DNA from: an uncultured Eubacterium sp.
Lineage (GTDB): Bacteria > Bacillota > Clostridia > Peptostreptococcales > Anaerovoracaceae
Reading direction: 5' to 3'
NCBI GenBank assembly: GCA_946555345.1
Contig: CAMNSS010000006.1
Coordinates: 62,001-126,000, forward strand
DNA: 64,000 nucleotides
Under the pieces are notes generated by a model that did no database searches, was not told where the DNA came from, and saw only the letters and a list, made by a program, of their open reading frames with translations. Below are positions 3,489 to 63,704 of this stretch, piece after piece. The position numbers and the translations under genes are program-made. Numbering within the stretch: the stretch's first letter is position 1; each line of letters opens with the position of its first letter.

Positions 3489-4378
3489 AAAGCCATCCCT
3501 TATACTATGCCCGATTAGCATGATTTAAGCTGGCGATAAGCATATCCGTATTAAATGCGGTATTTACACTATGTTCGTTTTCCTGGTGCGATTTTTCAAA
3601 TATATCCGGTGCGGCCACGGCTTAATTTCCAAGCGAATGCATGGGAACGCTGAAATTCGGTTCCTTTGCTTTGGTAATGCAATTTTCATAGGCCGCTTTC
3701 GGATGGCCGGGCCTGCCGCAGGGTTTGGGCGCATCGGCAGTTCGTTAAAGAACTTGTATAAACCTTCTTCCGGACGCTTTCGGGAAGCGTGCGGATTTTC
3801 ATATCGCTATTTTTGCATATCTTCATTTCAAAAAGGAATCCATCAGGTTTCCCGTTTTTATCTTTTCCGATTCTCCCTATTGCCACCGTGCTGCTTTTTG
3901 TCATGCCGCATAACGCTAATGCTTTTGGATTTAACAAGTGCAAGTGTCCATCCGCAGGCGGCAACAACAGGGATGCCTGGAGGCGCTTGCCCCAGCCTGT
4001 CTTTGATAGCAACATTTATCTGTGCATTATCGATAAGGCGTAATTGATAAGAAGCAATTCGTTTCCATGGCGTGCTTCTTATTAAGTACCCGGATCGTTT
4101 AAATACCGTTTCTTAATAATTGAAACAGAATAAGGGCGTGATTATAATAATAGCAAATGGCTCATCAGCGGATGAAAGAGGTCGAATTCCCGTTTCATTT
4201 GGGCGGATGAAAGAGACCGAATCCCCGTTTCATTTGGGCAGATGGAAAGGAATTTGTCCCGTTTCGTTTGAGCGGATGGAAGGGGTTGCGCATTGTTTAA
4301 TTTGGTGGAGTTCCTCTGCTGCATGGCCATTGGCCGTGTCTGTTTTTTTGAATCGGAGCAAAGGAGGCGATTAGTTAT
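3489..4378. other. Non-coding gap before the permease gene
   Basis: About 890 bp with no recognised gene. Open frames of about 110-160 codons occur on both strands (3571-4047 plus, 3686-4015 minus), but neither has a ribosome binding site, a domain I recognise, or a composition like the neighbours. A 10-bp inverted repeat (ATAAGAAGCA, 4047-4056, with 4073-4082) and the tandem hairpin repeats at 4168-4288 are the visible structure. A decayed gene cannot be excluded. Confidence 0.5.
4168..4288. repeat. Tandem 34-35 bp repeats, each able to fold
   Basis: Units start at 4168, 4203, 4238 and (partial) 4272, opening with GCGGATGAAAGAG or a close variant. In the first two units ATGAAA near the start can pair with TTTCAT near the end, so each could form its own small hairpin. 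The array ends about 90 bp before the permease gene and probably lies in its leader. Confidence 0.75.
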
Positions 4379-5782
4379 ATGAAAGAGGGTTTTAATAGTG
4401 CGGACAGCAATAGCAGTTTAGGGAAGTTTGGATATGAGGAATCGTTAAATCGTGTCATGAAGCTGCCGGATGTCGTATTTTTTGGCATGGCGTATTTAGC
4501 GCCGGCAGGGATGTTTTCGACCTACGGCATTGTCTGCAACATGACGCACGGGATGCTTGCTTTGACGTATACGATTGCAATGCTGGCGATGCTGTTGACA
4601 GCGCTGAGTTATCGGCAGATGGTGCGGGCATACCCGATCTCGGGTTCTGTGTATACATATGTGCAAAGGAGTATCAATCCGTACGTGGGCGTTCTTGCGG
4701 GCTGGACAATCCTGCTGGATTATGTGCTGTTGCCGATGTTTAACTTGGTTGCGGTGGGATTGTATGTAAATATTTTCATTCCGCAGGTATCGTTCCGAAT
4801 TTGGATTTTGGTCTTCTTAGTGTTGGTAACGATTGTAAACCTTGTCGGCATGAAGGTTACTTCGCTCGTTGATAATGTATTGAGCTTGATTCAGTTGGCC
4901 TTCCTGATCGGCGTCATCATCTTTTCCATTAAATATATTGCCGAGGGCGGCGGGCAAGGAACGCTCTTTGATTTTGAATCCTATTTTAATGCGCTTGAAT
5001 TTGGCAAGCCCGATGTGGGAATTGCGGCGATCTTAAGTGGCGCATCCATTTTGGCGATGGCGTTCCTGGGCTTTGACTCGGTCACTACCGTCGTGGAAGA
5101 AACGGTCGAGCCGGAGAAAAACGTGGGCAAGGCGCTTATTATCATATGCCTTTTCGCAGGCTGCGCCTTTGGCGTGACTTCATACTTGATGCAGGTGGCA
5201 TGGCCGGAAGGATGGTTTTCGTTCACAGATCCCGATACCGGGGCAAGCGATTATTTCTCCCATGTGATTGGAGACTTTATGGCCTCGATCTTTATCGGCA
5301 TTGTCGTCATCGGCGGGACGGCCTCGGCGATCGCTTCCCAGACATCTGCCTCCCGCATTTTGTTCGGCATGGGGCGGGATGGCGTATTGCCGAAAAAAAT
5401 CTTTGGCTATGTGAATCAGAAGACGAAGATTCCAACGATTAATGTCCTGATTATTTCGGTTATCACAAGCGCCGCTTTGGTTCTGGACTTAACGGCAGCG
5501 GCCTCCTTGGTAAACTTTGGCGCATTGTTAGGGTTTGCGTTGGTGAATCTATCGGTTATTTCCCATTACTTTATTAAGAAAAAGCAGAGGGGCGCAAAAG
5601 CTGTGTTAATCTACTTAATCTTGCCGATATTGGGGGCTTGCGTGTGCCTTGTGATATGGACGAACCTAGATGTTATGTCCAAAATCGTTGGCGGGATCTG
5701 GATGCTGGCTGGCCTGGTATTTCTGGTCGTGACGACAAAAGGATTCCGAAAATTGCCGCCAGAAATGAATTTTTCAGAATAA
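4379..5782 (+). CDS. APC-family amino acid/polyamine permease
   Basis: Secondary transporter of the APC superfamily, likely importing an amino acid or polyamine; resemblance is closest to the putrescine/amino-acid branch. At 467 residues it has about 12 hydrophobic segments. The first carries the unwound-helix signature of the family (VVFFGMAYLAPAGMFSTYGI, about 33-52) and a later stretch reads LGFDSVTTVVEETVEPEKNVGKAL, typical of APC helix 6 and its loop. AAAGGAGG at 4360-4367 supports the start at 4379. It is monocistronic: hairpin repeats lie upstream and a terminator follows. A role in supplying amino acids for fermentation would fit but is inferred. Confidence 0.9.
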   Translation: MKEGFNSADSNSSLGKFGYEESLNRVMKLPDVVFFGMAYLAPAGMFSTYGIVCNMTHGMLALTYTIAMLAMLLTALSYRQMVRAYPISGSVYTYVQRSINPYVGVLAGWTILLDYVLLPMFNLVAVGLYVNIFIPQVSFRIWILVFLVLVTIVNLVGMKVTSLVDNVLSLIQLAFLIGVIIFSIKYIAEGGGQGTLFDFESYFNALEFGKPDVGIAAILSGASILAMAFLGFDSVTTVVEETVEPEKNVGKALIIICLFAGCAFGVTSYLMQVAWPEGWFSFTDPDTGASDYFSHVIGDFMASIFIGIVVIGGTASAIASQTSASRILFGMGRDGVLPKKIFGYVNQKTKIPTINVLIISVITSAALVLDLTAAASLVNFGALLGFALVNLSVISHYFIKKKQRGAKAVLIYLILPILGACVCLVIWTNLDVMSKIVGGIWMLAGLVFLVVTTKGFRKLPPEMNFSE

Positions 5783-53327: not shown

Positions 53328-54080
53328 TCAGGCTTCTTTTTTACAAATATAGCGGGGTAAGCCGTTGCTGTGTTTTCCATATTCAATCGCTTCCTCCGGG
53401 CAACGGCAGATACACGCCATGCAATGCGTGCAATGATCTGCCCATGCGGGCTTTCCATTGTCCAGATGGATATTGTTAAGCGGGCATACGGCTGCGCATT
53501 TGCCGCAGGAAATGCAAGCGCTGGTGACATAAAATTTCTTGGCGTGGACGAACAATGGGTAAAAAAGGCTGTTTACCATCCCGCTGCTGATGCGGTCCGT
53601 CAAGGAGGCCTTTGCGCGAGGGAGCATATTGCCATTTTTGATACAGCTTGCGGCGTGGTCTATGACGGATTCCGCCTGCTCGATGGTCTGCAATGCTTCT
53701 TCCTGTTTCGGAGTAGAGAAAAGCGCAATGTAATTTTCCGGCATTACAATCCCCAGACACCCCAGGCAATTCATTTTCTTGCCCGCACACAGCTTTTTTA
53801 AGTATTTGCCCGCATTCCCGATGCTGTCTCCGCAGGTCATAATGAAATACATATCGTGGTTTCCCGTAAATTCTGTGTTTTCGATCCAGTTTTGCACGAT
53901 GCGCGGGATTCTCCAGGCGTAAGTCGGAACGACAACGGTCCATGGGCGTTCAGAATGCATTTCCGAAAAATCGTTTTCCCTGATTTTTGTAAAAAGATCC
54001 AGAACTTCATCACCGGTCTCTTTCCCGATTCTTTTCGCCACATATGCGCTGTTTCCTGTGCCGGAAAAATATAAAATCAT
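53328..54080 (-). CDS. EFR1-family flavodoxin-ferredoxin fusion
   Basis: Electron-transfer protein joining a flavodoxin-like domain (MILYFSGTGNSAYVAKRIG with the phosphate loop SGTGNS, about 6-11) to two C-terminal 4Fe-4S clusters (CISCGKCAAVCP and CTHCMACICRCP). The 250 residues match the EFR1 family, common in anaerobes, physiological partner unknown. AAAGGAGG fixes the start at 54080. It stands alone between feoB and a 600-bp repeat-filled gap. Confidence 0.93.
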   Translation of the reverse strand: MILYFSGTGNSAYVAKRIGKETGDEVLDLFTKIRENDFSEMHSERPWTVVVPTYAWRIPRIVQNWIENTEFTGNHDMYFIMTCGDSIGNAGKYLKKLCAGKKMNCLGCLGIVMPENYIALFSTPKQEEALQTIEQAESVIDHAASCIKNGNMLPRAKASLTDRISSGMVNSLFYPLFVHAKKFYVTSACISCGKCAAVCPLNNIHLDNGKPAWADHCTHCMACICRCPEEAIEYGKHSNGLPRYICKKEA

Positions 54081-54268
54081 AGCTTGCTCCTCCTTTATCG
54101 TCCTACCATTATAGCAAACCCCTGTTTTTAAAACAACATCGGCAAGGGGCGGCGTTGCCATGAAAATGAAGGACTCGCCAGTTTTTGTATCTGTTGGTAA
54201 CGTCCCGCCAGAAGGGGAAAAACCGCGCTTGCCAAGACACTCGCCGATGGTGTAAAGATGTTCTGTGC

Positions 54269-54440
54269 CATATGCCTCGCACCGTGTGTTTCATGTAGCA
54301 TATTTCATACCATATGCCCTGCGTCGTACGTTTTGCGTCATATATTTTCTCCATATGTTCTGTGCTGTATAGCCTTCATCATATGTTTTCCGCCAGAAGT
54401 TTCACGCCATATGCCCTCTGTCAGATGTTTCACGCTGTGA
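54269..54440. repeat. Degenerate 41-42 bp repeats with a ~21-bp sub-period
   Basis: CATATGCC-like heads at 54269, 54311, 54352 and (diverged) 54394, spacing 42, 41 and 42 bp. Additional CATAT cores lie roughly midway (54298, 54339, 54379), giving a half-period of about 20-21 bp, or two DNA turns. Confidence 0.7.
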
Positions 54441-54487
54441 AAAAATCCTCCTGGACAAGCCTCGTCTTGCGGCTGATTCAGGAGGAT
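54439..54487 (-). terminator. Terminator of the serA-ACT transcript
   Basis: On the minus strand, ATCCTCCTG (54487-54479) pairs with CAGGAGGAT (54453-54445), followed by a run of T (54444-54439). Located 216 nt after the ACT gene stop. A T-run also follows on the plus side. Confidence 0.78.
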
Positions 54488-54702
54488 ATGTTTTTTGTTA
54501 TGTATGCAGGGGGTTGTTTGCAAAGGGCTGTCTGACGGATATGTACGGTTTTTGCATCAACAGGCGGCTGGAACCTTTTGCATCAACAGGCATCTGGGGC
54601 TTTTGCCCCGAGCGGTTTATATGTGCGGCTTGGTATATCTATGACCATAAAATTATGATATGCCTGTTTTGCCTCACAATATTTTGATTGTCTTTTTTAG
54701 CC

Positions 54703-55074
54703 CTACAATATTTGGTAGCCGTTTTGTTTTAAAACATCGACCGCAGCGTCTAACTGATTTGCCTTTACTAAAATGTAATCCGTATTATAGGTAGAAACCG
54801 CAAATATGGAAATTTCAGCTTGCGCAAGTACCGTGCTGATCTTTGACAGTATCCCGATCAGGGAAAAATCTAAAATCCCGGTAATCCTGATTGCCCGCCA
54901 GCCGTCTTCCATAGCATCGCTTTCGATGGCTACGTCTTCGTCCACTACGATCGACAATTCTTCATCCGTTCTCGTGATGGAATAGAAGCCCTGCGCCAGT
55001 ACGGCCTCTGGGATTTTTGCATCACTTTTCAGTTTGGCTACCTTTAGTTTGTTTTCTAATATTTGTAATTGCAT
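54703..55074 (-). CDS. ACT-domain protein
   Basis: Small protein of 123 residues with a tandem ACT-like fold (CASTOR/ACT_7 type): EELSIVVDEDVAIESDAMEDGW leads into ITGILDFSLIGILSKISTVLAQAEISIFAVSTYNTDYILVK. Such proteins bind amino acids and often sit beside serine or aspartate pathway genes. It is 47 bases downstream of serA on the same strand, so it may sense serine or a related amino acid, but this is inferred from position. Confidence 0.82.
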   Translation of the reverse strand: MQLQILENKLKVAKLKSDAKIPEAVLAQGFYSITRTDEELSIVVDEDVAIESDAMEDGWRAIRITGILDFSLIGILSKISTVLAQAEISIFAVSTYNTDYILVKANQLDAAVDVLKQNGYQIL

Positions 55075-55121
55075 TTTACCTTCCTTGGCTTTATGTTGCG
55101 AAGCAGCATAGAAGCATTCGT

Positions 55122-56252
55122 TTATTTCAGGATTCTGACCCTGATGATGCCGTCACCCGTGATGGCGGTTTCATCTACATCGTTTGTGGTTTCGGCCAGC
55201 GTGTAAGCATAGTCGCCGCGCGTCTTGTTGATGACGTCTCCATCTGCGATGGCGGCCACCTTTTCCAGTGCGCCTGCGTCTGCCTTGGAAATCACGCAGA
55301 TGCGGACAGCCTTCTTCGGACCTAACGTGCAGGCGGGCATATTGACGGAATTTACAATATTGCCGTTTTCCAGGTAATCCATGATTTCATTGGCGGCCAT
55401 AGCGGCGCAGTTATCTTCTGCCTCTGCGGAGGAAGCCCCCAGGTGCGGCAATGCGATCACGCCTTCTTTGCCGATTACTGCGTCGTTTGGAAAGTCCGTG
55501 ACATATTTCTTTACTTTGCCGTTGTCCAGCGCTGCCAGTAAATCCGTATCGTTTACCAGCTTATCCCTGGCGAAATTCAGGAACGTTACGCCGTCCTTCA
55601 TCTGGGCGAAAGCAGCCGCATCGATCATGCCCTTGGTAGCGTCCATCACAGGAACGTGAATCGTGATGTAGTCGCATTTCGGATAGAGATCTTTTACCGC
55701 ATCGACGATTTCGATCGTATTGGAAAGGGAGTGCGCCGCCTTTACGGAAAGGTACGGGTCATAACCGATGACGTTCATGCCCAGGCTTTCGGCGGCATTC
55801 GCTACCAGCACGCCGATCGCCCCGAGGCCGATCACGCCCAGCGTTTTCCCCAGGATTTCCGTTCCCGCAAACTGCCCTTTGCCCTTTTCTACAGTCTTTC
55901 CGACGCCATCCTGTCCGATCAGCGTCGTCGCCCAGGTATAACCGGCCGGAATATTTCTCGCCGCCAAAAGCATCCCTGCAAGGCACAGTTCCTTCACCGC
56001 ATTTGCGTTCGCGCCGGGTGCGTTGAAAACGACGACGCCCTTCTCTGCGCATTTATCCAGCGGAATATTGTTGACGCCCGCGCCGGCCCTGCCGACTGCC
56101 AGGAGGTTTTCGGAAAGCTCCATCTCGTGCATATCGTAGCTTCTCAGAATGATGCCATTGGCTTCCTGCACATCATCCACTATCGTGTATTCATCCGTCA
56201 GGCGGGCTAAGCCAGCCGGTGATATTTTGTTTAACGTGCCGATTTTATACAT
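55122..56252 (-). CDS. serA: D-3-phosphoglycerate dehydrogenase
   Basis: First enzyme of serine synthesis, oxidising 3-phosphoglycerate with NAD+. The 376 residues have the substrate region VGRAGAGVNNIPLDKCAEKGV, the NAD motif GVIGLGAIGVLVANAA, NFARD with the catalytic Arg, and HLGASSAEAEDN with the catalytic His. A C-terminal ACT-like part (KAVRICVISKADAGALEKVAAI) probably binds serine. A GTG at 56261 is an alternative start, but GAAAGGTGG fits the ATG at 56252. No serC is adjacent. Confidence 0.93.
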   Translation of the reverse strand: MYKIGTLNKISPAGLARLTDEYTIVDDVQEANGIILRSYDMHEMELSENLLAVGRAGAGVNNIPLDKCAEKGVVVFNAPGANANAVKELCLAGMLLAARNIPAGYTWATTLIGQDGVGKTVEKGKGQFAGTEILGKTLGVIGLGAIGVLVANAAESLGMNVIGYDPYLSVKAAHSLSNTIEIVDAVKDLYPKCDYITIHVPVMDATKGMIDAAAFAQMKDGVTFLNFARDKLVNDTDLLAALDNGKVKKYVTDFPNDAVIGKEGVIALPHLGASSAEAEDNCAAMAANEIMDYLENGNIVNSVNMPACTLGPKKAVRICVISKADAGALEKVAAIADGDVINKTRGDYAYTLAETTNDVDETAITGDGIIRVRILK

Positions 56253-56682
56253 ATTAACCACCTTTCAAAATTGAATCTAAATTATTGATTTACAGATTAA
56301 ACCGCATCGGGGATGCCGGTGCTGTCCGCAGCGTGGAGGGTTTATTGAACCCCCTAGGGTGCGTCCGGAGAATGCGGTGATATCCGCTTGAAAAGGAAGC
56401 GGGCGCATCTGTTGCCAAAAGAACCGGCGTATCCGTCCCCCGGCCGTTTTGGTGCGGCCATGTCCGATCATCGTTTATCGCAAGTATTGTACCACTTTAC
56501 AGTAGTTTCGTAAAGTGGTTGGCTTGAATAAATTGGGATAGAGGGGGGGCGGCGGTTTGCCAGGAAACCACAGCGTTCGCAGACAAAATTCGACACAGGC
56601 AGAGCATCTCATGTAAAATGGCAATACCCCAAGCACAGTATGGCTTACGGTAATTATCAACATGGAAAGGAAGGAATTTTGC
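56253..56682. other. Divergent gap between serA and the recombinase gene
   Basis: 430 bp without a gene. The main structure is the ACCACTTTAC dyad (56491-56519). I looked for a serine T-box in the serA direction and did not find the conserved AGGGTGG block. Confidence 0.55.
56491..56519. promoter_or_regulatory. Dyad ACCACTTTAC-N9-GTAAAGTGGT
   Basis: Perfect 10-bp inverted repeat (56491-56500 with 56510-56519). It lies in the divergent region between serA and the recombinase gene. Its outer ACCAC/GTGGT matches the outer ends of the recombinase sites at 57539 and 57810, so it could be a recombinase-bound or regulator-bound site. Confidence 0.5.
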
Positions 56683-57528
56683 ATGGGAGAAAGAAGGTTA
56701 TCATTGGAAAAGATGCAGGTGTTTCAGGATTATTTGGCTTTGGATGAAAAGAGCAATGCGACAATAGAAAAGTATGTACGGGATGCGTATGCTTTTTTTG
56801 CATTCGCTGGAGAGCGGGAAATCACAAAAAAACTGGTAATTTCATATAAAAACAGGTTAATGGAACAAGGCTATGCGCCCAGGAGCATCAATTCGATGCT
56901 AGCATCGCTGAACAGCCTGCTGTATTTTTGTGGCTGGCGGGACTGTATCGTTAAGAGCATGAAGCTGCAAAAGCAGGTTTACTGCCCTGTGGAAAAGGCT
57001 TTGACAAAAGCGGAGTACATGAGGCTTTTGGATGCGGCGAAACAGAATCGCCAGGAGCGGCTTTATTTTGTTTTGCAAACGGTTTGCGGGACGGGCATCA
57101 GGATTTCCGAGTTGCGGTATTTTACCGTGGAATCGGTTCGGAGCGGGGACGTTAGTGTTTCCTGCAAAAATAAGACCAGGCATATCCTGATCCCGAAGAA
57201 GCTGCGGCGGATGCTTTTGCAATTTGCCAAAGATTCGGGAATTGCCCAGGGCGTGATTTTCAGGACGAAGAGCGGGAAGCCATTGGACCGCAGCAACGTG
57301 TGGGCTGAAATGAAAAAGCTGTGCGGGATTGCCGGGGTGAATCCGCAGAAGGTTTTTCCGCATAATTTGAGGAAGCTCTTCGCGAGGACTTTTTACAGGG
57401 CGGAAAAGGATATTGCCAAGCTGGCGGACATCTTGGGGCATACCAACGTCAATACGACCAGGATCTATCTTGTAGAGACAGGAAGCGAACACCGAAAAAG
57501 AATCGAGCGCCTCGGATTGGTCGTCTGA
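56683..57528 (+). CDS. Tyrosine recombinase, probable DNA invertase
   Basis: Site-specific recombinase of the phage-integrase/Xer type, 281 residues. The N-terminal SAM-like core-binding domain (about 8-95) precedes the catalytic domain with R140 (CGTGIRISELR), a lysine in the CKNKTRHILIP hairpin (about 161-171), H227 and R230 (HNLR), H253 (LGHTN) and nucleophile Y262 (TTRIYLVE): the whole active set. AAGGAAGG supports the start at 56683. Ten bases after its stop begins one of two inverted sites, so its likely job is to flip the 245-bp segment between them. It lacks phage or conjugative neighbours. Confidence 0.92.
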   Translation: MGERRLSLEKMQVFQDYLALDEKSNATIEKYVRDAYAFFAFAGEREITKKLVISYKNRLMEQGYAPRSINSMLASLNSLLYFCGWRDCIVKSMKLQKQVYCPVEKALTKAEYMRLLDAAKQNRQERLYFVLQTVCGTGIRISELRYFTVESVRSGDVSVSCKNKTRHILIPKKLRRMLLQFAKDSGIAQGVIFRTKSGKPLDRSNVWAEMKKLCGIAGVNPQKVFPHNLRKLFARTFYRAEKDIAKLADILGHTNVNTTRIYLVETGSEHRKRIERLGLVV

Positions 57529-57538
57529 AAAAAATCAA

Positions 57539-57564
57539 CCACATAATGAAAATTATGTGGTAAT
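57539..57564 (+). repeat. Left recombinase site of the inverted pair
   Basis: A simple tyrosine-recombinase-like site: 10-bp arms ACCACATAAT and ATTATGTGGT (57538-57547 and 57552-57561) around an asymmetric GAAA centre. Its 26-bp sequence recurs in reverse orientation at 57810-57835 without a mismatch. Confidence 0.88.
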
Positions 57565-57649
57565 GCCGTCGTTTCATATTCCCTGGTTTCCAGCGAATAA
57601 TCCCCTATCCCCATTTGGAAAAGGGCAATCACTTCATTTTAACATATCC

Positions 57650-57678
57650 ATATTATCATACGCTCTGCTGTTCGGCAA
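57650..57678 (-). promoter_or_regulatory. Candidate promoter inside the invertible segment
   Basis: Minus strand: TTGCCG (57673-57678), 17-base spacer, TAATAT (57650-57655), 4 of 6 matches in each box. As drawn it reads toward the end of the recombinase gene; after inversion it would read toward the TnpB-like gene. Other candidates on the plus strand of the segment are weaker. Confidence 0.45.
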
Positions 57679-57809
57679 TTATTTTCTTGTCTTACTAGAG
57701 CCGCTTTTTGTGCCATGATTAACTCAGCGGAAGAAATAACCAAAATAATTATTATCTGCCGTTAAAACCCATATATCTAATCGTCATATCCAGCTTGGAA
57801 ATTAAGCGA

Positions 57810-57835
57810 ATTACCACATAATTTTCATTATGTGG
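57810..57835 (-). repeat. Right recombinase site of the inverted pair
   Basis: Reverse complement of the left site, all 26 bases identical, with centre TTTC instead of GAAA. The opposed centres mean that recombination between the two sites would invert, not delete, the DNA between. Confidence 0.88.
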
Positions 57836-57862
57836 CATATGCGCCATATTTTATAAAAACAT

Positions 57863-59191
57863 ATGCTAACGAATCGGATCTGCAAGACGACGCGCCAGTA
57901 CAGCAGGAGCAGGATTCCTGAAAAGGACATGGAGGCGCTCCAGGTTATTGCGTGCGATTATTGCACGGTGAAAAATTACATATACCGCCGGTATGGCGGG
58001 GCGGGAAGCCTTGATAAAATTTATCCGGGCTATACGGTGCAGAATGAAATGACGGAATCTGGCTTGCGGGCGGCGCTAGGCTTGCCATCGGTGTATTTTT
58101 ACCTCGCTATTTTTGACGCGCTGGGGGACATCAAAGCACAGTGGACGCAGGTAAAGGAAAAGATTCGTGCAGCGGCTGGGCGCAATGAAAATTTTGGCGG
58201 CGCAGACAGGCGCTACTTGCGTTTTGTGCTGAAAGTCCATGTGTGTTTTGCCGCAATTATCCAGGGCAAGGAAATCAAACTTCCCAGAAAAATGAAAGAC
58301 ACGTTCGACGGACTGGCAGGACTTGTGGATCGCAGAAGGCTGGACAGCTATCTGAAACGCCAGGCGCGGAAGCACCTGCGCAGGCTTTGCACGGAGGAAA
58401 GAAATGGGTTTTCCATCTCGAAAAAGGCGTATCGGTATGAAAAGGACGGTATCTGCATTGCTTCAAAAGAACCCAGAAAGCGTATCTTTATCCCTTTAAC
58501 GGACGGAAACCAGTATGAACGGCAGCTTTTCGTTAAGCTGTACCCGCAGGAACAGCGGCTGGAAATCGCCGTTCCCCTCGATGTGCAAATCAAATCGCAT
58601 ATGCACTATGATAATGAGGTAGGGATATCCGCAGGGATGTTCGCTATGCTGACGACGGATCAGGGAAATGTGTACGGGGAGCGGCTCGGCGAGCTTACGA
58701 TGCAGTATGCGGATTGGGTGCAAGCGCAGGCGAAGCGGCATCGGGAAAACAAGGAAAGCAATCCGGGAAGGAAGAAATATTATGCGCAGAAGCAGAAACG
58801 GCAAGCGCAAATGCATTGCTACATCAATGCGGAATTGAATCGTTTTTTTGAGGAGGAAAGGCCGAAGACGGTTTACTTTCCGAAGCTTCCGGGGGCGGGA
58901 AGGGCTGGCGCAGTGCGCAAACATAACCTTTATGCGCATATGTGGCAAAGAGGCTATATCAGGCGGCGCCTAGAACAGAAGTGCATCGAACATTCCGTTG
59001 CGCTTGTGGAAGTGTATGCGAAAGACATCAGCACAATCTGTAGCCAGTGCGGCGGCTTTGGAAAAAGCGTAAAAGGGATTTTTTCCTGCCGGGAATGCGG
59101 GTACCAGGGAGACGCCAAGGAGAATGCTGCCCGCAATGCGAAAAACAGGGGGCGGGATGCGCAGGGCCGCCACGAAGAACGCACGACATGA
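57863..59191 (+). CDS. TnpB-family protein with lost RuvC active site
   Basis: Homologue of TnpB, the RNA-guided nuclease of IS200/IS605-type elements and ancestor of Cas12. The C-terminal zinc ribbon (C393, C396, C409, C412) and the VEVYAKDISTICSQCG lead-in are diagnostic. The three RuvC acids are gone: VGID is VGIS (S256), the Glu of the second motif is Pro or Phe (VYFPKL, about 337-342), and the DxNAA Asp is Lys (K419 in KENAARN). The protein is otherwise intact at 442 residues. No tnpA or element ends are seen. This pattern is that of TnpB-like nuclease-dead repressors. No ribosome binding site precedes the ATG at 57863, so the start may be further in. Confidence 0.85.
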   Translation: MLTNRICKTTRQYSRSRIPEKDMEALQVIACDYCTVKNYIYRRYGGAGSLDKIYPGYTVQNEMTESGLRAALGLPSVYFYLAIFDALGDIKAQWTQVKEKIRAAAGRNENFGGADRRYLRFVLKVHVCFAAIIQGKEIKLPRKMKDTFDGLAGLVDRRRLDSYLKRQARKHLRRLCTEERNGFSISKKAYRYEKDGICIASKEPRKRIFIPLTDGNQYERQLFVKLYPQEQRLEIAVPLDVQIKSHMHYDNEVGISAGMFAMLTTDQGNVYGERLGELTMQYADWVQAQAKRHRENKESNPGRKKYYAQKQKRQAQMHCYINAELNRFFEEERPKTVYFPKLPGAGRAGAVRKHNLYAHMWQRGYIRRRLEQKCIEHSVALVEVYAKDISTICSQCGGFGKSVKGIFSCRECGYQGDAKENAARNAKNRGRDAQGRHEERTT

Positions 59192-59286
59192 AACAACGCA
59201 GGAAAACCGCCGCAGGAATAAAGACGCGAGAAAATAAAACAAATACAAGAAACATCAAATCGTTCAGAAGAATCTTTGCATGAATA

Positions 59287-59310
59287 AATCCGCCAGAAAT
59301 GACGGATTTT
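59287..59310 (+). terminator. Possible terminator of the TnpB-like gene
   Basis: AATCCG (59287-59292) pairs with CGGATT (59303-59308), 10-nt loop, followed by TTTT; short stem, about 95 nt after the stop. Confidence 0.45.
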
Positions 59311-59368
59311 ACCGAGAGGATCATTGCTCTGGATTCATGAAATAAAAAACAATTTACGGCGTTAGAAG

Positions 59369-59505
59369 GCAGGTGCATTTTGGTGCATCCTGCGCATTGG
59401 GTACGCCAAGACCCTGTGAACATATGCCAAAAGGATATGAGTGGCAGGGAGCGAAGCGGGAAACCTGCAAAGGCGCAGGGGTTTCGCATCATCCGTTTTG
59501 GATGA
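59369..59505 (+). ncRNA. Candidate structured RNA, five consecutive hairpins
   Basis: Pairings in order: GCAGG-TGCA with TGCA-(T)-CCTGC (59369-59393); TTGG/CCAA (59397-59409); CCCTG/CAGGG (59412-59449) enclosing CATAT..CC/GG ATATG with an AAAA loop; GCGAA/TTCGC (59451-59487) enclosing CCTGC/GCAGG; and TCATCC/GGATGA (59489-59505). Nearly every base of 137 is in or between short stems, unlike the surrounding DNA. It could be a guide RNA scaffold for the TnpB-like protein, a leader element of the next gene or a riboswitch. I recognise none of the known riboswitch consensus blocks. Strand is assumed from the flanking genes. Confidence 0.5.
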
Positions 59506-59668
59506 CCAATATGTCTTATTTTATATTTTAGTATGTTAAATGCGATATTGATATTTTCTTTAGACGTCTAGCGAATTGCAGGCATCTGGGAAATGTTTTT
59601 ATCGGTGCGCTTTGATAAAGCTCACTGGGATATCTGCCAGATATTCCGCAGGTGGATGGAGGCCGTGC

Positions 59669-61357
59669 GTGCGTAGATACCAGAAGAAACAATTAATAGA
59701 ATTGGCAAACACGATGGAAGAAGCTTTTTCGCACATCGAGTATTGCCGGCCGGGAGCAGGTGAAGCGGGGCAAGCAGATCAAATGAATAAGGTGGGGCAA
59801 GCGGACGGAATGAGCCAAGCAGGCGATAACGTGCTGGTTTCCCTCTGCGCCGATTGCCAGGACTGCGCCGTTGCAATCGGCAATGCCATCGAAACCCTGG
59901 CAGGGAAGGAAGCACAAGCCGGACAGACTGCGACTGCGCAAGGCGAACAAACAGCGCGTGACAGGCAAGCGGCATATGCAGAGCAGGCAGCGCAGACCGT
60001 GGCGCTGCTCGAGGAGCTGTGCGAGCAGCTTTACTTCATCACGCAGGAGGACGGATCGCTCAAGCCATACATAAAACGGTGCAGGGGGCTGCTGGCTAAG
60101 GTAACCTACGGCATTAAGTACGGGTTGCCTGACGATAAACTGGAAATCCTGTTCCTCCCCTACAAGGCGTCCATGTGGACCGCGTTGGAAAGCATCTGGC
60201 AGGCGGCAATCGGCTATGAAAATTGCAACGTGACGGTGATGCCCGTGCCGTACTACAAGCTGTACCTGGCGGAGGAAAAGGGCGAGTTTGCCTATGAGGG
60301 GGAGGAATTCCCGGATTGCGTGCCAACCGTTTCATACAAGGAATACGACATCGAAAAGGCGCGCCCGGACATGATTTTCATCCACAACCCGTACGACGAC
60401 ACGAACACGCTGACGCGCATCCCGGACGAATACCACTCGCAGGCCCTGAAGCAGCACACGGACCTGCTCGTGTACAGCCCTTACGCAAATTTTGGCGCGT
60501 TTAACCCGGTGGCGACGCACCCGTTCATGTGCCAGACGAAGGCGCTGCAGTATGTGGATTATGTCGTCGTGCAGTCAAAGAAGGTGGCGAAGCTGTACAG
60601 CGACGCGGGCGTTGCGAAAGAAAAGTTGCTCACGTTTGGTTCCCCCAAGGCGGATGCCATCGTCAATAAATTGAAGGAAAAGCAGCCCCTGCCGGAGGAA
60701 TGGGAACGGAAGCTGGCGGGCAGATGCGTTATATTGTTTAATATCAGCCTCTCGTATTTTATCGTTTGGAGAAATAGGGAAGAACAGAAGGAAGTGCCAG
60801 ATGAATATAGTTATGCGATGACAGTTGTCGAGCGTTTTCTGATGGAGATGGGCGGGCATCCTGATTTTGGTCTTATCTGGCGGCCACACCCGCTGATGAA
60901 GGATATGCTTCGGAGCAGAGGCCTTGAACGGGAGATTGAATTTATTGCAGAAATGGAAAAGCTGATTGAGGCTTCGGAGAATATGGTCATCGACCGGAAT
61001 GCCGATTATATCCCCGCGTTCCAGCGGTCTGATGGGTTTATGACCACGTATACTTCATTGATTTCCGAATACATGATCACGGGCAAGCCGGTTGCGTTAT
61101 ATGAGTGGAATTATAAATTTTTAGAGGATGAAAACCAGCCCGTTAGTTACCTGCATAATTATTTTTGTCGTGCGGCAGAAGTTCCATTGCATGATAAAAA
61201 CCAGGTTTACCGCCAAGGTTTTCTCGAACTCGTGAAATCCGGCAAGGATCCGATGCGGGAAGGGCGCATGGAGGATGCGCAGAAAGGGTTCGGCAACCTA
61301 AATGGTGATGCGGGGGAAAAAATATTCTCGTTCCTCATGGGGAAATTGCAGTTTTAG
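59669..61357 (+). CDS. CDP-glycerol glycerophosphotransferase-like protein
   Basis: Probable GT-B transferase acting on teichoic acid-like or other surface polymers. From about residue 150 (KLEILFLPYKASMWTALES) the sequence has the general plan of CDP-glycerol glycerophosphotransferases: LTFGSPKADAIV, FGLIWRPHPLM and a donor-site stretch RSDGFMTTYTSLISEYMITGKPV. The N-terminal part is interrupted by two Ala/Gln/Gly-rich stretches (about 28-54 and 80-110). A GTG at 59669 is preferred because GGAGG lies 6 bases before it; the frame is open to a TTG at 59576 without a binding site. 562 residues, no membrane segment. Polymer and donor are unknown. Confidence 0.75.
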   Translation: MRRYQKKQLIELANTMEEAFSHIEYCRPGAGEAGQADQMNKVGQADGMSQAGDNVLVSLCADCQDCAVAIGNAIETLAGKEAQAGQTATAQGEQTARDRQAAYAEQAAQTVALLEELCEQLYFITQEDGSLKPYIKRCRGLLAKVTYGIKYGLPDDKLEILFLPYKASMWTALESIWQAAIGYENCNVTVMPVPYYKLYLAEEKGEFAYEGEEFPDCVPTVSYKEYDIEKARPDMIFIHNPYDDTNTLTRIPDEYHSQALKQHTDLLVYSPYANFGAFNPVATHPFMCQTKALQYVDYVVVQSKKVAKLYSDAGVAKEKLLTFGSPKADAIVNKLKEKQPLPEEWERKLAGRCVILFNISLSYFIVWRNREEQKEVPDEYSYAMTVVERFLMEMGGHPDFGLIWRPHPLMKDMLRSRGLEREIEFIAEMEKLIEASENMVIDRNADYIPAFQRSDGFMTTYTSLISEYMITGKPVALYEWNYKFLEDENQPVSYLHNYFCRAAEVPLHDKNQVYRQGFLELVKSGKDPMREGRMEDAQKGFGNLNGDAGEKIFSFLMGKLQF

Positions 61358-61390
61358 GAAGAAGGAAAGCGAGTACGCGGGCGATTAACG

Positions 61391-62194
61391 ATGCTTGGGA
61401 AAATCACACACTACGAACAGTTGCTTCCGTACCTTGAGGAAGATATCGAAAACTGTCTGTACATTTACATGGATCTCGTCAATGGGAAAAAAGAATATGC
61501 TGATATGGATGTCTGGGTACAGGAGGAAAGAAGCAAACCTGAGCTGGTTTTGCTCCGCTATTACGAGAGCTTTCAGGTTTATAGCAGTAACGGCACGGGA
61601 AATATGGCGGCGGCAGTCGAGATTATGGAACAATTCCAGCCAAAGATGATTTCCGGGCCGGAAACTGTAATCCGAGCCATTGCAAGTTTGGACGGTGGAG
61701 ATTATCAGGCTGAATACGGGGCGGTTTATGAGATTTGCAGTGAAAGGCGGTTTTCCGGGGCTGCGGATGTGCAAAGGGCAGTGGAGATGGATGCCGCAGA
61801 AATTGCGCGCCTGATTAGCATGGATCAGAAGCTGGGCGGGCATTACGGTGAAGAAAATTTGGCACATCAGCTACGAAGCAGGATGCGAAGCGGGACGGGG
61901 CGCAGCTATGTCATCAGGAGGGACGGCAGGATTATAGCGCACACGGCGGCTTATGCAGAGACAAAAAAGTATGCCGTCGTCAGCGGGACGATCATCCATC
62001 CCGATTACCGGGATAAAGGCTATTACCCCATCATCAGCAGTCATATTGCAAGGGCGTTAAAACAGGAAGGCAAACGAAGCTATACGTTTTCCGTCACGCC
62101 CCAGATGATGCGCTACCACGATAAGGTTGACAGGAAGTGCGGCTGTTATGGGAAATTAACGAGGAGGACACGAAATCATGAAATTGTTGGATAA
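61391..62194 (+). CDS. GNAT-family N-acetyltransferase
   Basis: Two-part acyltransferase of 267 residues. The C-terminal half is a GNAT fold (about 140-260): AEIARLISMDQ, HTAAYAETKKYAVVSGTIIHPDYRDKGY with the acetyl-CoA loop region (PDYRDKGYYPIISSHIARAL), and SVTPQMMRYHDK. The N-terminal half resembles that of GNAT proteins with a preceding helical domain. It overlaps the next gene by 17 bases, which suggests one operon making or modifying an amino sugar or aminoacyl group on a surface polymer; the substrate is not known. Confidence 0.8.
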   Translation: MLGKITHYEQLLPYLEEDIENCLYIYMDLVNGKKEYADMDVWVQEERSKPELVLLRYYESFQVYSSNGTGNMAAAVEIMEQFQPKMISGPETVIRAIASLDGGDYQAEYGAVYEICSERRFSGAADVQRAVEMDAAEIARLISMDQKLGGHYGEENLAHQLRSRMRSGTGRSYVIRRDGRIIAHTAAYAETKKYAVVSGTIIHPDYRDKGYYPIISSHIARALKQEGKRSYTFSVTPQMMRYHDKVDRKCGCYGKLTRRTRNHEIVG

Positions 62195-63704
62195 AATCAG
62201 GGAACACGCCGCTAATATGCCAGAAAACATGGCCATAGCCGATTACCATGGGCAGAGTTTTACTTATGGGCAGCTTGAGCAGTACTCGAACCGGATTGCC
62301 GCATATTTGCAAGAACACATCCCGGATGACGGAAGCCCTGTCATCGTATACGGGCATAAGGAATTATATTTGCCAATCATTTTCCTTGGATGCGTGAAGG
62401 CAGGGCATCCATACTGCCCGATTGACAGCTCTGAGGCTGATGAGAGGATACGGATGATCATCGACGAGGTAAAGCCGCACATTGTTTTTGCGGCAGGACC
62501 GCTGGGCGCGGATCAAGGCAATGTCCTTTCCTTGGAGCAGGTGAAGGACATATGCCTGTCTGAATCCTTCAGTGATGGGAAAGACGGCAGCACACAGGAA
62601 AACGATATTTTCATCCTTTTGTTTACTTCTGGCAGCACGGGCAGGCCAAAAGGCGTTGAAGTAAAGCAATCGAATATTGATGATTTCTTCATTTGGTTTG
62701 AAACTTGGTCTGCGGAATACCAGGAAGATTTCGTTTTCCTGAACCAACTGGCATATACGTTTGATCTGTCGATGCTGGAGTTGTATGCGCCGTTATGGAT
62801 TGGCGGAAGCGCATATATTATCGACAGCATGGTGCAGAAGGATTTCAAGCGGATGCTCAATGCGCTGGGAGACTCCAATGCCGTTGCATCCATGTCTACG
62901 CCGTATCTGGCGGAGCTGTGCTTGCTGAGCAAGGCGTTCTCTGAAAAATTGATGCCGCGGTTACGGCTGATTCTGTTATGCGGCGAGGTTTTGGAAAATG
63001 CCACGGCTCTCAAATTGATCGATCGGTTTCCAGAGGCCAAGATTGTCAATATGTACGGTCCGACGGAAGCGACCATAGCCGTCACGGAGCAGGAAATTAC
63101 GAAAGGGCTGGCTGAAAAGCCCGATCCGCTTCCAATCGGCAAACCGAGGGCGCGCACGGAAATAGAAATATGGGATGAAAGCGGGAAAGTGGTCAGAACT
63201 GGGGAAAGCGGGGAAATCGTGATCAAAGGAGACTCCGTGACACGGGGGTACTTCAGGCAGAAGGAAATGACGGAAAAGGTGTTCATCCCGTATGAAGAAG
63301 ACGGTCGGAAAAAAGCGGCGTACAGGACAGGGGACTGCGGCTTCATAGATGCGGATGGCATTGTGCATTGCAGGGGCAGGATTGATATGCAGGTACAGTT
63401 CCATGGATATCGCATCGAATTGCCGGAGATAGAAAAAACGTTATTGAAACTGGATCTTGTTTCCAAGGCTGTCGTTTTGCCGAAATGGGATGGCGGGAAG
63501 GTGAAGTATTTAGCGGCTTTCATGATAGCGGCGGATGAGGCTCAAGGACAAAAGTCGCCGGAAGAGCTGGGTAAATTGATTCGGGAAGAACTGAAAGGTT
63601 TCCTTCCGGAATACATGATCCCAAAACGGATCATCTGTTCCGATAGCCTGCCGATGAATAAAAGCGGCAAAGTAGACAGGAAAAAACTTGCAGAATCGCT
63701 TTAG
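62178..63704 (+). CDS. AMP-forming adenylation enzyme, DltA-like
   Basis: Adenylate-forming enzyme of the D-alanine:carrier ligase/NRPS adenylation type, 508 residues, which would activate an amino acid and load it on a carrier protein. The phosphate loop is LLFTSGSTGRPKGVEVKQSN, then NMYGPTEATIA, the YRTGDCGFID motif, GRIDMQVQFHGYRIELPEIE and the C-terminal catalytic Lys in PMNKSGKVDRKKL. Overall closest to DltA. GGAGG precedes the start inside the GNAT gene. A carrier protein gene follows. dltB and dltD, if present, are beyond the window. Confidence 0.88.
   Translation: MKLLDKIREHAANMPENMAIADYHGQSFTYGQLEQYSNRIAAYLQEHIPDDGSPVIVYGHKELYLPIIFLGCVKAGHPYCPIDSSEADERIRMIIDEVKPHIVFAAGPLGADQGNVLSLEQVKDICLSESFSDGKDGSTQENDIFILLFTSGSTGRPKGVEVKQSNIDDFFIWFETWSAEYQEDFVFLNQLAYTFDLSMLELYAPLWIGGSAYIIDSMVQKDFKRMLNALGDSNAVASMSTPYLAELCLLSKAFSEKLMPRLRLILLCGEVLENATALKLIDRFPEAKIVNMYGPTEATIAVTEQEITKGLAEKPDPLPIGKPRARTEIEIWDESGKVVRTGESGEIVIKGDSVTRGYFRQKEMTEKVFIPYEEDGRKKAAYRTGDCGFIDADGIVHCRGRIDMQVQFHGYRIELPEIEKTLLKLDLVSKAVVLPKWDGGKVKYLAAFMIAADEAQGQKSPEELGKLIREELKGFLPEYMIPKRIICSDSLPMNKSGKVDRKKLAESL

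Follow-up and report, generated by a model that had tools for sequence, protein, structure and literature searches.

In the window (i.e. the whole 64,000-nt stretch of DNA analysed here), a short segment flanked by inverted repeats lies between the gene of a tyrosine recombinase and that of a predicted nuclease-dead TnpB, which is followed by a conserved structured RNA and by surface-polymer genes (Table 1). We consider it fairly probable that a recombinase-flipped promoter turns on the dead TnpB gene, the RNA and the surface-polymer operon as one unit, and that the dead TnpB is an RNA-guided regulator. The flipping and promoter half of this proposal draws on comparative evidence, and the half concerned with RNA binding and regulation on homology and conservation.

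Table 1. Features of the predicted switch and the genes behind it (window coordinates)
Feature	Position	Strand	Evidence
Tyrosine recombinase, 288 aa, Xer-like, probable invertase	56662..57528	+	Pfam Phage_integrase E 3.6e-24
Left recombination-site-like dyad, ACCACATAAT-GAAA-ATTATGTGGT	57538..57561	.	Repeat and dyad scans
Segment predicted to invert	57565..57809	.	245 bp between arms; no listed ORF of at least 60 aa
Right recombination-site-like dyad, with TTTC centre, in inverse orientation to the left one	57813..57835	.	Repeat and dyad scans
Predicted nuclease-dead TnpB, 442 aa	57863..59191	+	TNB domain (Cas12f1-like) E 3.9e-11
Conserved structured RNA, omega-RNA-like scaffold; variable stretch from 59521	59357..59520	+	Fold z-score, covariation
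CDP-glycerol:poly(glycerophosphate) glycerophosphotransferase-like (TagF-like)	59669..61357	+	Pfam Glyphos_transf E 1.3e-08 (on 59657-61354)
GNAT-domain acetyltransferase, next gene in the same direction	61391..62194	+	Pfam scan
AMP-binding (adenylation) enzyme	62178..63704	+	Pfam AMP-binding E 2e-65

The inverted repeat and its segment

A first-pass annotation of this DNA had described a mismatch-free 26-bp inverted repeat at 57539-57564 and 57810-57835, beginning 10 bases after the stop codon of the recombinase. Both points are exact: the arms are 26 nt long, 100% complementary and 245 nt apart, and the stop codon ends at 57528. Each copy had also been read as a dyad with a GAAA/TTTC centre; the centres are as described, but the outermost base of the right copy is C, so that its outer arm has 9 bases where the left has 10, the dyads being otherwise the same. 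Both can be read as 9-6-9 or 10-4-10, and their asymmetric centres point in opposite senses, which is the arrangement required for inversion. The 22-nt dyad occurs at only two sites in the window with up to 3 mismatches (0/100 shuffles); in the 2.85-Mb assembly, the exact dyad is confined to this pair, with two further places at 3 mismatches.

The best promoter-like match within the segment (TTGCCG-17-TAATAT, starting at 57678) lies on the minus strand and points away from the dead TnpB gene. The state captured in the assembly, the single orientation known here, is therefore probably OFF, with some uncertainty because the match score (11.3) is equalled by 9% of 300 shuffles (P 0.09). The left dyad, together with its outer T-tract, scores as a minus-strand terminator for transcripts that leave the segment toward the recombinase, while terminator-like sites in the window scan are about as frequent as in shuffles. 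The top NCBIfam match of the recombinase is XerA_Arch, under the model cut-off; residues R..K..HxxR..H..Y, read by eye from its translation, fit the motif of a tyrosine recombinase. This enzyme presumably acts on the two adjoining dyads, and the segment would thus flip in the window organism.

Recurrence of the predicted switch in relatives

An inverted repeat lies directly upstream of the dead TnpB gene at 22 of the 28 loci compared, against 1/98 control ORFs. Repeats were counted if they were at least 15 nt long and ended no more than 200 bp from the gene, at loci with at least 450 bp of upstream sequence; controls were ORFs of the same loci with at least 200 aa, lying at least 3.5 kb from the dead TnpB gene. 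The count omits L087, as well as four loci with too little upstream sequence (L018, L021, L080 and L085), and the gene start of L084, whose ORF runs into a recombinase remnant, was set by hand. No such repeat was found at L013, L015, L023, L024, L072 and L079 (6/28), of which L072 has a dyad pair with mismatches; the repeat scored for L070 differs from its dyad pair. The later addition L102, also a dead locus, combines a TagF-like gene with a recombinase enclosed by a 20-bp repeat. Two size classes of inner segment occur: short ones of 103 to 339 bp and long ones, mostly of 1.4 to 2.3 kb, which contain a recombinase. Site sequences differ among groups of relatives.

Comparison of orientation among related genomes, which the first-pass annotation had proposed as a check, revealed opposite orientations in two sets of loci. 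Between L019 and L020, the flanks and the dead TnpB gene align on the same strand (80-87%), whereas the segment matches in reverse orientation (75% over 251 bp). Its TTGACA-17-TATAAT promoter, whose score is reached by 0/200 shuffles, points toward the gene in L019 and away from it in L020. In L016, the segment with the recombinase lies the other way round than in L017 and L081, the dead TnpB gene having the same direction in all three; one flank was compared, the other being a contig end in L016. Both orientations of the segment, a feature of tyrosine-recombinase invertons, therefore occur in relatives. The earlier suggestion of a 245-bp promoter segment that flips and so switches the TnpB-like gene gains support from comparison, i.e. 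from the excess of repeats over controls, the opposite orientations and a promoter that appears to turn along with the segment.

Promoter facing was also scored in other relatives. In the end 300 bp of ten long segments (L084 and L102 omitted), the best outward promoter is at the TnpB end in four (L011, L016, L075 and L086) and at the far end in six (L017, L025, L078, L081, L082 and L083); five of the ten match the consensus perfectly and the others score 12.4-13.2, all scored without a shuffle control, and L075 has an inward match of 14.7. Among short segments, all six of G296 have their best promoter facing away from the gene (in three of them the plus-strand match scores 12.7 versus 14.4), as do L022 and L077, while the two facings of L014 score 9.0 and 8.6.

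Loss of the nuclease centre in the TnpB relative

The gene behind the switch had been called TnpB-like, and its product is indeed a TnpB relative but apparently no working TnpB; the RNA and the surface-polymer operon had escaped the earlier annotation. The product reaches 56 bits against the guided_TnpB model (cut-off 100). The RuvC residues D, E and D are replaced by S, K and K, and all three acidic residues are absent from 33/33 aligned relatives, the window included (30/30 in an earlier alignment), and present in 2/2 canonical TnpBs. The CxxC zinc finger is kept, with cysteines invariant in a 16-row alignment. An AlphaFold model built with 15 relatives (mean pLDDT 86, pTM 0.57) matches TnpB/Cas12f structures over most of its length (best E 6.6e-11, TM ~0.44, 13% identity; rmsd 8.7-13 for the top two). 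Because the RuvC positions are replaced, the zinc-finger cysteines are invariant and the structural match is to TnpB/Cas12f, we predict that the protein is a nuclease-dead TnpB.

The closest relatives found with both RuvC aspartates are L100 (4247-5638) and L101 (turned, 3769-5157). Since both aspartates are kept and the glutamate is one alignment column off, the two are counted as probably intact catalytically. No TagF-like gene accompanies either of them in the fetched stretch. Our repeat count would have included L101, on account of an AT-rich 15-nt inverted repeat, so that the contrast between dead and intact loci weighs little. In a tree of the loci of this analysis alone (i.e. with no published TldR sequences), L100 and L101 fall among the dead TnpBs with weak support (84/80), which makes one loss and several losses indistinguishable.

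A conserved structured RNA with a candidate guide

The RNA region of the window (59352-59522) folds better than 200/200 shuffles (z -3.86), and its core follows the dead TnpB gene in 30 of the 32 loci scanned, the exceptions being L018 and L023. When the core pattern was run against 119 genomes of the family, it appeared only in G000 (the window's own genome) and G054, each with a dead TnpB. Rfam gave no match across 54000-62000. We aligned 24 of the 30 RNAs (L022 and L070-L074 left out), which share three helices and a short hairpin with 87.5% paired cells; the pairs of the short hairpin suit one of two RNA groups better. Compensatory cells, in which both sides changed, number 73 (23.8 +- 4.9 in shuffles), and the covariation score is 0.434 (shuffles, 0.179 +- 0.019). 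The paired-cell, compensatory-cell and covariation-score values are reached by 0/500 shuffles, and sliding the partners abolishes the signal. Two further measures are weaker: 11 pairs are doubly changed (reached by 14/500 shuffles) and there are 25 further pair types (118/500).

Right behind the scaffold of L019, L020 and L021, nine columns vary among the three loci, whereas the 16 columns ahead of them and a run of 24 beyond them are invariant; a changing guide would look like this. The stretch behind the scaffold in L083-L085 appears hairpin-like by eye. Searches for guide targets gave no convincing match in the window's own genome, three other genomes or the sister loci, guides of ~10 nt being too short for such a search. 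The 17-nt stretch behind the scaffold matched only its own locus in G000 with up to 2 mismatches, and the same type of search in G304 likewise returned only the own locus; in G306, there was one additional 2-mismatch match, within an ORF. The G296 stretch gave 22 matches with up to 3 mismatches, its own locus included, against 28 for a reversed-pattern control, and two 2-mismatch matches there fall in the same repeated element before one kind of gene. Ten-base guide matches in the sister loci are mostly AT-rich and scattered, and five guides that the pattern had missed added only 9- to 11-base matches. A candidate match between the L085 stretch and TagF codons was dropped, since a conserved protein motif underlies it and the stretch seems to be part of a hairpin.

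Some RNA regions show further peculiarities. In L019, L020 and L021, the variable stretch is followed, ahead of the next gene, by a strongly conserved TTGACAATTTCATACTTTATA, part of which also occurs in L013. Two loci of G296 (L073 and L074) have an expanded scaffold, in which a ~60-nt unit bearing a hairpin is repeated several times in tandem, and three others (L070, L071 and L072) have a second TATGTGCCTTATT-like scaffold end some tens of bases downstream, like two ends in a row.

Surface-polymer genes and distribution

The start of the TagF-like gene in the window was placed at 59669, a GTG with GGAGG upstream, in an ORF open from 59576; the AMP-binding enzyme two genes further is, we presume, possibly DltA-like. 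A TagF-like gene is present within the fetched stretch at 21/32 loci (i.e. 11 of L011-L025, 9/16 paralogue loci and the window). It precedes the dead TnpB gene in L013, L024 and L079, directly adjoining it in L013 and L079, and lies behind it in the other 18. Of eight proteins scanned, the TagF-like one of L019 matched no Pfam family. In eight of the 11 loci that lack a TagF-like gene there, the dead TnpB gene is followed by sugar or glycerol nucleotidyltransferase-like genes, identified by eye, with L012 alone checked by Pfam.

The dead-TnpB gene is rare in general. Only 5 of 296 genomes of the family match at E 0.001: two dead (G000 and G054), two with canonical TnpBs (G282 and G238) and one remnant with an internal stop codon (G059). 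In the class, 4/391 match at E 1e-40 (two dead and two probably intact). A single scan of genome contigs found 15 dead-TnpB loci, mostly in Lachnospiraceae; one scan of viral contigs yielded no relative, and neither did 50,697 phage and 72,556 plasmid records at E 1e-5. The L005 and L022 loci are the same and were counted once, the G059 remnant (L006 and L009) is excluded from the counts, and L076 is a fragment only.

Several genomes have more than one copy. Searching the same genomes for paralogues with an alignment of 16 as the query, we found seven full-length dead-TnpB copies and a fragment in G296 (Sporofaciens musculi), three copies (one truncated by a contig end) and a fragment in G298, three copies each in G299 and G305, and two each in G302, G304, G306 and G309. 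A weak second match in G310 was left uncounted.

Proposed mechanism and alternative readings

In the mechanism that we propose, the tyrosine recombinase would recombine the two inverted 24-bp dyads and flip the 245-bp segment, the promoter of which would face either the dead TnpB gene (ON) or the opposite way (OFF). In the ON state, a single transcript would span the dead TnpB gene, the structured RNA and the glycerophosphotransferase-like genes, all of which run in the same direction in the window. The dead TnpB would bind the RNA downstream of its gene and form an RNA-guided regulator with no nuclease, and switching the surface-polymer locus on would also turn on its own regulator. With its RNA, the protein may act on a DNA target set by the short variable stretch, or on its own transcript. 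A wider version is tentative and, in our judgement, somewhat doubtful: a family of phase-variable RNA-guided repressors in which every polymer locus would come with a flip switch, a dead TnpB and a guide of its own, an ON locus would silence chosen other genes of the cell, the up to seven full-length copies would form a network that chooses surface polymers, and tyrosine recombinases would have been recruited several times independently.

The switch could be invertible and the dead TnpB and RNA nevertheless act in cis on their own transcript, e.g. by antitermination or as a leader RNA for the polymer operon. This is unlikely in our view, although the near-constant presence of the RNA behind the dead TnpB gene, the hairpin-like stretches of L083-L085 and the failure to find a post-scaffold target in four genomes (one locus each) or in the fetched sister loci all accord with it. 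The RNA position, taken by itself, is explained by ancestry, omega-RNA lying downstream of the gene in TnpB loci; moreover, the varying columns between conserved runs in L019, L020 and L021 are expected of a changing guide, and the plus strand of 59192-59700 has no terminator-like site.

Two other readings would deny the switch. The repeats might be only a terminator or a regulator-binding site in a fixed segment, with the recombinase (Xer-like or a remnant) serving elsewhere. The terminator score of the left dyad with its T-tract and the single known orientation in the window are compatible with this, whereas the perfect inverted arms, an exact dyad found nowhere else in the genome, and relatives that repeat the layout with other site sequences and in opposite orientations render it improbable. 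Alternatively, the recombinase, repeats and TnpB-like gene might together form a mobile IS or integrative element that ends in the repeats or uses them as attachment sites. TnpB is normally transposon-borne and many elements are moved by tyrosine recombinases, and this general habit is the point in favour of a reading that we otherwise hold to be highly improbable: the nuclease residues are gone in all 33 aligned proteins, the phage and plasmid records and the viral-contig scan contain no relative, the repeats bound just 245 bp with no listed ORF, and the gene is accompanied by weakly similar recombinases of unlike length, or by none in the fetched stretch. We retain the flipped promoter ahead of an RNA-guided regulator as the preferred reading.

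Comparison with known systems

In fim and Bacteroides capsule invertons, a short gene-free promoter segment lies between inverted dyads, with a tyrosine recombinase adjoining or in trans and a surface structure downstream. The window locus has these features in common with them: inverted sites, a promoter segment and a recombinase are all present, the promoter being weak and the recombinase presumed to act on the sites. It belongs to a family that differs from them in that the first gene is a predicted dead TnpB with an omega-RNA-like element and that ten loci have the recombinase inside the segment. With IS200/IS605-type TnpBs and their omega-RNA, the family shares the fold, the zinc finger and the downstream RNA element. 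By contrast, catalytic residues are absent in 33/33 and locus mobility was not seen, so that neither the active TnpB nor the mobile distribution of such elements was found. As in TldRs, the RuvC residues are lost and a scaffold RNA, predicted from covariation, lies beside the gene.

The closest published case is that of the csrA-associated TldR flagellin loci with hin invertons of Walker et al. (PMC13418256), who cite Wiegand et al. 2024 for TldR. According to that paper, a recombinase and a ~120 bp promoter-bearing inversion lie directly upstream, guide targets were obtained by ChIP-seq and one Oscillibacter strain has four loci (PMC13418256). The idea of a dead TnpB behind a flip switch has thus already been published (PMC13418256). 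The csrA-tldR loci and the window family have in common a TnpB homologue with a dead RuvC, an adjacent RNA, a chromosomal location, surface-structure genes, an upstream inversion with a recombinase and genomes with several copies. The former have Hin, csrA and flagellin, whereas the latter has tyrosine recombinases or none nearby, and glycerophosphotransferase-like and other surface-polymer genes; it also has seven full-length copies in one genome, has yielded no target and is known from sequence alone. New with respect to csrA-tldR are thus the tyrosine recombinases (Hin is a serine recombinase), the surface-polymer operons, the copy number and the set of loci. Among the literature matches listed, none dealt with this combination, and an earlier mention is possible.

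In Lachnospiraceae and their relatives, many of them gut dwellers, these surface-polymer loci would bring two mechanisms together, inversion of DNA and regulation guided by RNA. If the dead TnpB were guided to other genes, it would give bacteria a reversible, heritable and programmable choice of surface. The recurrent pairing with different recombinases suggests selection for flip-switch control of the regulator, and the loci are ready material for testing the uses of domesticated TnpBs.

Recombinases at the dead-TnpB loci

The recombinases at these loci are only weakly alike and have lengths of 189, 288 and mostly about 370-410 aa, while some loci have none in the fetched stretch. One site type is common to six loci of G296, in which comparison with the recombinases known here revealed none in the fetched stretch. 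The recombinase lies inside the invertible segment at 10 loci (for L025, from DNA similarity only).

The window's genome encodes a second tyrosine recombinase (G000:C7:123175-124014; L010:4170-5015, minus strand), which is 48% identical to the first. The single dead TnpB gene of the genome lies elsewhere, and a search within 1200 bp gave no inverted repeat reaching 15 nt; a loose dyad can be made out by eye in the AT-rich stretch that follows the recombinase gene. Two recombinase genes in opposite directions occur in L078 (728-1846 and 2353-3471), with identical first 45 residues and only one of them between the repeats. In L084 (turned, dead TnpB on the plus strand), a recombinase remnant and the dead TnpB share one open frame (ORF 1102-2802), which may reflect a natural fusion or a coincidence of frame.
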